From positions 1 to 64,000 of the forward strand of contig JAIXLB010000096.1 in NCBI GenBank assembly GCA_026931905.1: a stretch of DNA of 64,000 bases. Reading direction: 5' to 3'. Positions 10,631 to 36,064 of this stretch are shown here, one piece after another. Every line of letters begins with the position of its first letter. Positions within the stretch are counted from its first letter, which is position 1. Origin of the DNA: Chitinophagales bacterium. Lineage in GTDB: Bacteria > Bacteroidota > Bacteroidia > Chitinophagales > Chitinophagaceae. The position numbers and the translations under genes are program-made. The notes under the pieces were generated by a model. The model ran no database searches. It was given only the letters and a program-made list of their open reading frames with translations, and was not told the DNA's origin.

Positions 10631-11050
10631 ATGGCTGCAAAATCTGATAAGGGTGAAAATAAAAAACCCAAAGCAACAAAAGAAAATAAAGTTGAAAAAA
10701 CATCTTCAAAAAGTAAAAAACAATTAGAAGATGATGATGATGATTTTGAGGACGACTTAGATTCAACCTCAAAGTCAGGCAAACCTTCATCAAAAAAATC
10801 ATCAAAAAAATCAAAAAATGATATTGATGATGAAGACGATGATGATGTAGAAGAAACAGACGAATGGGAACAAGTAGAAGAAGAAGAAAGTTGGGACCCC
10901 GACTTTGATGAATTTGATATTCCTAAAGCCAAAGGGGGTAAAAGTAGAGGTAAAAAAGATGATGATGATTTGGGCTTAGATGAAGAGCTCAAAGAGTTTG
11001 ATGATATGTTTGTTGATGATGAAGACGATAATTACGATGATGATTTTTAA
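10631..11050 (+). CDS. Extremely acidic, low-complexity small protein
   Basis: A 139-residue protein with no cysteine, signal peptide or membrane segment. Residues 1-40 are Lys/Ser/Glu-rich and basic; the rest alternates runs of Asp/Glu with Lys/Ser blocks (KKSSKKSK at about 55-62). Two less repetitive motifs stand out: WDPDFDEFDIPK (about 92-103) and LDEELKEFDDMF near the C-terminus. These motifs and the ATG start in good context argue for a real gene rather than a repeat artefact. I recall similar acidic proteins next to purA in related bacteria, but cannot verify this here. It could be a nucleic-acid mimic or a charged chaperone-like protein; function unknown. pabB begins 11 bases downstream, so they may share a transcript. 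Confidence 0.75.
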   Translation: MAAKSDKGENKKPKATKENKVEKTSSKSKKQLEDDDDDFEDDLDSTSKSGKPSSKKSSKKSKNDIDDEDDDDVEETDEWEQVEEEESWDPDFDEFDIPKAKGGKSRGKKDDDDLGLDEELKEFDDMFVDDEDDNYDDDF

Positions 11051-12351: not shown

Positions 12352-12390
12352 TCGTAAAAACTATACCATCTATTTTTATTACTTTTGTTG

Positions 12391-12447
12391 CAGTAGGCAG
12401 ATTTGTTTATTGTTCAGCCTGCTTGAAAAAACTGAACTAATAAACGA
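12391..12447 (+). promoter_or_regulatory. SAM-II-like riboswitch (H-type pseudoknot)
   Basis: Two interlocked helices can form. P1 pairs AGTAGGC (12392-12398) with GCCTGCT (12417-12423), including one G-T pair. P2 pairs GTTCAG (12412-12417) with CTGAAC (12432-12437), so the 5' strand of P2 lies at the 3' end of the P1 loop: a classical H-type pseudoknot. Sequence features fit the SAM-II aptamer as I remember it: GATTTG at the start of the P1 loop, a TTG-CAG-CC-like end of the loop, an A-rich linker, and CTAATAAA after P2 where SAM-II has GCTAAAAA. The P2 bases differ from the known sequences but keep pairing. It precedes a homocysteine methyltransferase gene, a fitting target for S-adenosylmethionine control. 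Confidence 0.68.
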
Positions 12448-12488
12448 AAATCATTTCTGAAAAACTTCACAAATTATTTTTTCGTTTA
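12441..12488 (+). promoter_or_regulatory. Inverted repeat after the SAM-II-like element
   Basis: TAAACGAAAA (12441-12450) is perfectly complementary to TTTTCGTTTA (12479-12488), with a 28-base loop. The left arm overlaps the 3' end of the predicted aptamer, so the hairpin could compete with ligand binding and act as the expression platform. No T-run follows it, which argues against a simple terminator. Confidence 0.4.
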
Positions 12489-12538
12489 CAAGTTTTAGAA
12501 CAAATTTTTTAATAACCAAAGGTTAAACAATTCCTTAT

Positions 12539-13552
12539 ATGGCAAGCATTAGAGAAGAACTTGAAAAAAGAATTTTAATTATTGATGGTGCAATGGGCAC
12601 TATGATTCAAAGATATAAATTGGAAGAAAAAGACTTTAGAGGAGAGCGTTTTAAAGACTTTCATAAAGATGTTAAAGGCAATAACGATTTATTGAGCATT
12701 ACACAGCCACAAATTATTACAAGTATTCATAAAGAATATTTAGAAGCAGGTGCCGATATTATTGAAACAAATACATTTAGTAGTACAAGTATTGCTCAAG
12801 CAGATTATGATATGCAGTCTTTAGCCTATGAACTAAATGTTGCATCAGCTACATGTGCTAAAAATGCAATTAAAGAATTTGCTGCATCAACCAAAAACAA
12901 TACACCAAAATTTATTGCTGGTGCAATAGGACCATTGAACAAAACTTTAAGCCTTTCACCAGATGTAAATAACCCAGGCTTTCGTGCAGTAACTTTTGAT
13001 GAAGTAGTAGCAGCTTATACTGAACAAATTAATGGTTTATTAGATGGTGGTGTAGATATTCTTTTAATAGAAACTATTTTTGATACACTCAATGCCAAAG
13101 CAGCCATTTTTGCAGCTAAAAAATTATTCAGAGAAAGAAATATGGAAGTGCCAATAATGATTAGTGGTACAATAACTGATGCAAGTGGAAGAACTTTAAG
13201 TGGACAAACCTTAGAGGCTTTTTATGTTTCAGTACAACATGCAAACCCTTTGAGCGTAGGCTTAAATTGTGCCTTAGGGGCTAAAGAAATGCGTGGTCAT
13301 ATTGAAGAGTTGTCGAACATTGCAACCTGTTATGTTTCATCTTATCCCAATGCAGGCTTACCAAATGCTATGGGCGAATATGATGAAGCTCCAGAAGATA
13401 CTGCTCACTTTTTAGAAGAATGGGCAGCTAATGGTTGGGTAAATATTGTTGGGGGTTGTTGTGGTACAACACCAGATCATATTAAACATATTGCAGAACA
13501 TGTAAAAAATATTTCGCCAAGAAAACTACCAGTATTAGAAAATAGTTTATAA
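12539..13552 (+). CDS. Homocysteine S-methyltransferase domain protein (MetH N-terminal module)
   Basis: A 337-residue stand-alone copy of the homocysteine-binding barrel of cobalamin-dependent methionine synthase. The start [15 protein letters not shown] and [11 protein letters not shown] match MetH rather than BHMT-type enzymes. The zinc ligands are present: Cys244 in GLNCALG and Cys307-Cys308 in VGGCCGTTP. In E. coli MetH this module is the first ~325 residues of a single long chain. Here the frame ends at residue 337 and the pterin, B12 and activation domains are not in the window; the next gene is on the opposite strand. Split MetH proteins are known in Bacteroidota, so the remainder is probably elsewhere. 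A SAM-II-like pseudoknot lies about 90 bases upstream, implying repression by S-adenosylmethionine. Confidence 0.9.
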
Positions 13553-35982: not shown

Positions 35983-36064
35983 GCGGGTGTGGTGAAATTG
36001 GTAGACACGCCAGACTTAGGATCTGGTGTCGTGAGACATGGGGGTTCGAGTCCCTCCACCCGCA
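35983..36064 (+). tRNA. tRNA-Leu (anticodon UAG)
   Basis: An 82-base class II tRNA. The acceptor arms GCGGGTG and CACCCGC pair perfectly, with discriminator A at 36064. The D-loop has TTGGTAGA, the anticodon loop is CTTAGGA between CCAGA and TCTGG (anticodon TAG), the long variable arm is TGTC-GTGA-GACA, and the T-arm has GGTTCGAGTCC. The CCA end is not encoded. It reads CUA codons and by wobble other CUN codons. Confidence 0.98.

Follow-up and report, generated by a model that had tools for sequence, protein, structure and literature searches.

The SAM-II and SAM-V riboswitches are the closest described counterparts of the RNA element considered here. In the crystal structure of SAM-V, U47 pairs with the adenine of S-adenosylmethionine (SAM), the sulfonium lies opposite the U20:A48.U9 triple, and A50, itself paired to A18, hydrogen-bonds the amino-acid end of the ligand (PMC6061858). 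The presence of inosine at A50 severely weakens binding, and in the absence of SAM, U47 is proposed to form a single-nucleotide bulge in P2 (PMC6061858). The equivalent eight contacts have been listed for SAM-II (PMC11508383). These RNAs are modelled in the Rfam database as RF00521 (SAM-II, or the metA element, of Alphaproteobacteria), RF01726 (SAM-II with long loops, of Bacteroidota) and RF01826 (SAM-V, of 'Candidatus Pelagibacter'), whereas SAM-I (RF00162) has an unrelated fold built on a four-way junction.

The element described below lies at positions 12391-12447 of a 64,000-nucleotide stretch of DNA from a Chitinophagaceae bacterium, which was analysed as a whole and is referred to as the window. 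All of its parts are on the + strand. P1 is formed by AGUAGGC (12392..12398) and GCCUGCU (12417..12423), that is, seven base pairs including one G-U. The first strand of P1 is followed by a third strand, RGAUUUG (12399..12405), which corresponds to SAM-V positions 5-11 and is predicted, by analogy with SAM-V, to sit in the major groove of P2; its GAUUU is invariant in 73/73 covariance-model copies. The final letter of the third strand, G12405, also opens the 5' strand of P2a (GUUUAUU, 12405..12411), which contains the equivalents of A18, U19 and U20 and is continued by the 5' strand of P2b (GUUCA, 12412..12416). Downstream of P1, the A-rich linker L3 (12424..12432) leads to the 3' strand of P2b (UGAAC, 12433..12437), a single bulged U (12438) equivalent to SAM-V U47, and the 3' strand of P2a (AAUAAAC, 12439..12445). 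The linker varies from 5 to 78 nt in relatives, and the 7 nt of it that precede the P2 3' strand are 55% A. When 12385-12450 is folded alone without pseudoknots, the long P2 hairpin is preferred (-15.6 kcal/mol), and none of 200 shuffles is as good; a nested-fold program cannot show P1 and P2 together because the two helices interlock. An earlier note on this site, made from sequence alone, had proposed a 7-bp P1, which held, and a 6-bp P2, which held only in part: the G12417 of its sixth pair is shared with P1, and P2 continues past the bulged U. Its remark that P2 departs from textbook SAM-II while remaining complementary also held, with GUUC/GAAC at this locus and GUUU/AAAC or GUUA/UAAC elsewhere.

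The pocket was compared with that of SAM-V by a residue-by-residue mapping made by hand from the published numbering. The equivalents of U8, U9, U10, A18, U19, U20, G21, C46, U47, A48 and A49 are invariant among the 73 covariance-model copies, so both the sulfonium triple (U9, U20 and A48) and the adenine-reading bulged U47 with U8 are kept in 73/73. Overall, seven of the eight published contact equivalents are identical and invariant. The eighth, the adenine at position 50 (49 in Pelagibacter SAM-II numbering), is not kept: it is a U in every one of the 73 copies, U12441 at this locus, whereas position 50 is an A in 20/20 Bacteroidota RF01726 RNAs. With U in place of A50, the RNA may bind SAM more weakly, contact it in a rebuilt way or recognise another ligand, each of which remains possible.

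The Rfam 15 scan at 12391-12447 returned no family at its gathering cut-off, and up to E 10 only chance matches to unrelated families. RF01726 and RF00521 were not found in stretches of 181-501 nt at E<=10, RF01726 at its gathering cut-off of 44 bits had no match at the site either in the window or in 16 relatives, and RF00521 and RF01826 were not found in whole-Rfam scans, even at E<=10 on short stretches. A search of the whole source genome with RF00162 gave no match. Finally, a covariance model built from 32 sequences of relatives (R1) found nothing above chance among RF01726 members, and the two models fail to cross-match in both directions; for this reason, membership of the RF01726 sequence family was dropped. 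The earlier note had counted the lack of a SAM-II covariance-model hit as a refutation; this outcome did occur, but it is owing to missing library coverage. The element shares the architecture and, on the hand-made mapping, nearly the same pocket, yet it falls outside RF00521, RF01726 and RF01826 as they are now modelled. Elsewhere in the window, a tRNA gene (35983-36064) is the sole Rfam match.

Among the known riboswitches, SAM-V shares with the element the H-type pseudoknot, a seven-letter third strand between P1 and P2, a four-pair P2b of the form GNNC/GNNC, the single bulged U, the U-A-U triples around the sulfonium and translational control by hiding the start region, the last being inferred for the element. 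Unlike SAM-V, the element has no Rfam match, no P3 and a U at position 50, belongs to another phylum, has an extended P2a (UUU/AAA) and, in most members, stands in a long leader with a competing hairpin. RF01726 RNAs resemble it in the RGAUUUG third strand, the UUG and CUAA motifs, the A-rich linker, the phylum and the association with a methionine-cycle gene; however, they precede metK in all 18 members whose gene was readable, their P2b is GCA/UGC rather than GUUC/GAAC, and their P1 is typically GUGG/CCAC. RF00521 has the same P1-L1-P2-L3-P2 layout with P2a above the pocket, a promoter just before P1, methionine genes as targets and OFF regulation (again only inferred for the element), whereas the pocket adenine 49/50, the P2b sequence, the taxonomic range and the expression platform differ.

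Conservation and covariation of the element

A metH homologue was located in 56/61 relatives, and 30 of these leaders were read. The core RGAUUUGUUUAUUGUUCR, followed by the 3' strand of P1, the linker and GAACUAAUAAACG, precedes metH in almost every genome of the family, and the pattern search gives one near-perfect match per family genome as a rule; the fragmented assembly G004 (520 contigs) has two, unlike the usual one. The pattern search found no element in 5/37 family genomes. R1 detected one copy per genome in 99/110 Chitinophagaceae genomes of an order-wide sample, a single copy in the source genome, and the element in 11 further genomes, which belong to two families of the same order designated f13 and f17. 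Within a phylum-wide sample of 395 genomes, only one genome outside Chitinophagaceae was matched, weakly and not before metH; this match (G737/L259) was discarded, as no metH gene follows it. The pattern scan of a named collection yielded at least 119 loci; almost all bear the label Chitinophagaceae, Chitinophagales or Bacteroidota, with genera including Segetibacter, Puia, Niabella, Terrimonas, Ferruginibacter, Flavihumibacter and Sediminibacterium, among others. No match to the element was found in the viral contigs searched. Two loci, L168 and L218, are on contigs labelled Sphingobacterium thalpophilum and Beijerinckiaceae, which are probably mislabelled or derived from mixed metagenome bins. 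It should be noted that copy counts ignore relatedness, and related copies are not independent events.

The element is a conserved RNA structure in which P1 covaries and P2 covaries between families. In a plain MAFFT alignment of 32 copies, both-side changes occur in 6/7 pairs of P1 (with covariation in 6/6 pairs in a second comparison), and its covariation score of 0.143, compared with 0.061 +/- 0.008 for shuffled alignments, beats 500/500 shuffles and every slid register. The earlier note had proposed comparing the leaders of relatives, and this check bore it out, as the element is kept in 32 relatives and P1 covariation was found. Within Chitinophagaceae, the pairing of P2 rests on complementarity because the helix is almost invariant there, the only change on both sides being GUUA/UAAC in L012. 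With f13 and f17 included, 97.1% of cells pair, the covariation score rises to 0.374 versus 0.129 in shuffles, and both-side changes appear at two P2 pairs. Specifically, across families the P2b pairing GUUC/GAAC is replaced by GUUU/AAAC and the P2a pairing UUU/AAA by CUU/AAG, the latter being a U-A to C-G replacement on both sides in f13; for P2b, replacements of C-G by U-A and A-U are recorded, likewise on both sides. The minimum length of L3 tends to rise with the length of P1, as expected of a pseudoknot in which L3 must span P1: the smallest L3 is 5 nt for P1 of 3-5 bp, 9 nt for 6-7 bp, 12 nt for 8 bp and 15 nt for 9 bp, although a P1 of 10 bp, with a smallest L3 of 11 nt, is an exception to this trend. 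At one f13 locus, L256, P1 is exceptionally long (CCCCAAAAAGC/GCUUUUGGGG), and L3 is interrupted by a long hairpin.

Genomic context and candidate expression platform

The gene downstream of the element (12539..13552, +) encodes a stand-alone homocysteine S-methyltransferase module of MetH (PF02574, E 3.5e-102) and is the only copy in the source genome, where the second module (pterin/B12/activation) is encoded elsewhere, on contig C33. Out of 157 distinct copies of the element, 153 directly precede the homocysteine module of metH on the same strand, and the other four are cut by contig ends. Among the f13 genomes, copies are also found ahead of the separate pterin/B12/activation module (L250, L255 and L257), and in both f13 and f17 the element directly adjoins the start codon of one of the two MetH modules. 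Upstream of the core there is a sequence TAnnTTTG (TACTTTTG, 12380..12387, +), which we take to be the -7 promoter box of the Bacteroidota type. In 134/157 copies it occurs in the 20 nt that lie 8-28 nt upstream of the core, versus 0.5% at random places. Since this box stands just before P1, the transcript probably begins with the aptamer, and transcription is likely to start near the 5' end of P1, as inferred from the position of the box. In two of the genomes that lack the element (L266 and L268, from G020 and G035), the metH start codon closely follows a possible promoter box, as in leaderless messages, and it is possible that the switch was lost together with the leader. Elsewhere in the window, an ORF at 10631-11050, upstream of a chorismate-binding (pabB-like) gene, encodes a low-complexity protein that is lysine/serine-rich and then strongly acidic.

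SAM-I riboswitches were found about 50-200 nt before the same metH gene in ten further families of the order, each represented by one genome (G038, G042, G044, G045, G046, G047, G050, G055, G056 and G057). SAM-I was not found at metH in the Chitinophagaceae genomes compared, where it stands elsewhere: in the five cases examined (L260-L262, L264 and L265), it precedes genes resembling cystathionine gamma-synthase or O-acetylhomoserine sulfhydrylase, named from sequence resemblance without a family-library test. Among 37 genomes of the family, 32 carry the element, 28 carry SAM-I and 25 carry both. Since the same gene has SAM-I ahead of it in sister families, the element appears to stand in for SAM-I.

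In the usual Chitinophagaceae leader, the median distance from P2 to the AUG is 117 nt. A downstream competitor (CGUUUACAAGUUUU, 12483..12496, +), complementary to GAACUAAUAAACG (12434-12446), is the probable expression platform, and the minimum-energy fold of 12390-12545 consists of the P1 hairpin and an alternative hairpin that uses this competitor. The motif CGTTTA is present in 84/150 leaders versus 5% of shuffled leaders, mostly 25-38 nt after P2, and the pairing of the P2 3' strand with the downstream leader averages -8.0 kcal/mol versus -4.5 kcal/mol in shuffles. The alternative hairpin is predicted to be more stable than the P2 hairpin in 74/83 leaders. Because the downstream element can capture it, the P2 3' strand has two exclusive partners, and these model-predicted folds likely reflect the arrangement commonly seen in riboswitch expression platforms. 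The downstream hairpin was not read as an intrinsic terminator, as TTTT soon follows it in only 30/83 leaders. The stretch between the P2 3' strand and the competitor is 30% C and 12% G, a composition that could suit Rho loading, although this is no more than a guess. In f13, f17, L037 and L068, the distance from the end of the P2 3' strand to the AUG is between a few and a few tens of nucleotides (e.g., AACUAAUAAACAUG), so that formation of P2 would cover the ribosome landing site.

Ligand assignment and alternative explanations

The most plausible interpretation, to which we assign a probability of about 0.7, is that the element is a SAM-sensing OFF switch upstream of metH and a variant of the SAM-II/SAM-V family; both the ligand and the sign of regulation are inferred, and there are no binding data. 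According to this model, the metH leader RNA would fold into an H-type pseudoknot like those of SAM-II and SAM-V and act as an aptamer for SAM, which would hold together P1, P2 and the GAUUU third strand. Plentiful SAM would thus switch off the homocysteine-methylating module of MetH. In f13, f17 and some Chitinophagaceae, the SAM-held fold would directly cover the nucleotides immediately preceding the start codon. In the leader typical of Chitinophagaceae, it would instead prevent the downstream hairpin and leave the C-rich, G-poor stretch exposed, which may lower expression by a route that is not established, Rho-type termination being one guess. SAM is favoured as the ligand because sister families place SAM-I before the same metH gene. 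Several points speak against this interpretation, besides the near-invariance of P2 within the family and the uncorrected relatedness of the copies counted: the adenine at the amino-acid end of the ligand (A50) is replaced by U in every copy, with no binding data available; the models of the element and RF01726 do not recognise each other; and 25/37 family genomes also hold SAM-I and would not need a second SAM sensor. The earlier note had proposed a SAM-II-like H-type pseudoknot ahead of metH in a Bacteroidota genome, which is supported by conservation, covariation, the transcript-start position and gene context, whereas its claim of SAM-dependent repression remains an inference; it had missed the position of the element outside the Rfam SAM-II families, the U at the key SAM-contacting adenine and the competing hairpin in the leader.

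A bolder version, which we hold with less confidence and would not bet on at even odds, is that the anchor has been rebuilt (A50 to U, giving an A-U pair) and that the RNA senses either a non-SAM ligand or SAM by a new contact, SAM-I having been displaced at metH family-wide while remaining at other methionine genes in the majority of those genomes. Less probable still is a strictly altered specificity, in which a SAM-II-derived aptamer has kept its adenine and sulfonium sites, rejects SAM through the A50-to-U change and binds another methionine-cycle compound or a SAM derivative without the normal amino-acid end. In favour of this scenario, the sole changed pocket position is the amino-acid anchor, and it is invariant; most element-bearing family genomes also have SAM-I, before transsulfuration-type genes in the cases examined, which would make a second signal sensible; and SAM-I variants that reject SAM and sense spermidine provide a precedent (PMC10853860). 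However, the use of SAM-I for the same gene in sister families and the retention of the sulfonium-reading U-A-U triple and the adenine-reading U favour SAM, and we consider this alternative unlikely.

The remaining explanations fare worse. A ligand-free structured leader, that is, a hairpin switch read by a protein or by temperature and similar to SAM-II only by convergence, would agree with the stability of the nested folds (the P2 hairpin and the alternative hairpin) on their own and with the lack of ligand data, but the invariant unpaired GAUUU, the bulged U and the interlock of P1 and P2 with its L3-length relation are aptamer-like, and the near-exclusive link to metH and the replacement of SAM-I also argue against it, so that we regard it as very improbable. 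There is even less support for a DNA operator next to the promoter, in which the inverted repeat GTTTATTGTTC...GAACTAATAAAC is bound by a methionine repressor: the half-sites do form an inverted repeat that hardly varies and lies immediately after the -7 box, but their spacing differs widely among relatives (from little over 10 nt to several tens), P1 shows base-pair covariation, and the box puts the repeat inside the transcript. Finally, an ordinary RF01726 or RF00521 member narrowly missed by its model, as suggested by the shared GAUUUG third strand, UUG and CUAA, A-rich linker and gene class, is all but excluded and, as a sequence-family claim, largely refuted by the absence of any match at E<=10 (181-501 nt), the failure of the reverse search, the invariant A50-to-U change and a P2b of GUUC/GAAC instead of GCA/UGC.

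Rfam now annotates nothing at the metH leader in Chitinophagaceae, and in the open-licence literature searched there is no report of a Chitinophagaceae or Bacteroidota SAM riboswitch before metH, although an earlier description in closed or supplementary material is possible. The invariant change of a single base, at a contact whose structural role is understood, opens ligand specificity to direct testing. If the preferred reading of a SAM-sensing switch is true, the order holds a natural exchange of two unrelated RNA sensors, SAM-I and a SAM-II-like RNA, at one orthologous gene, and the element would represent an overlooked SAM-II/SAM-V subclass in a large family that is common in soil and freshwater.
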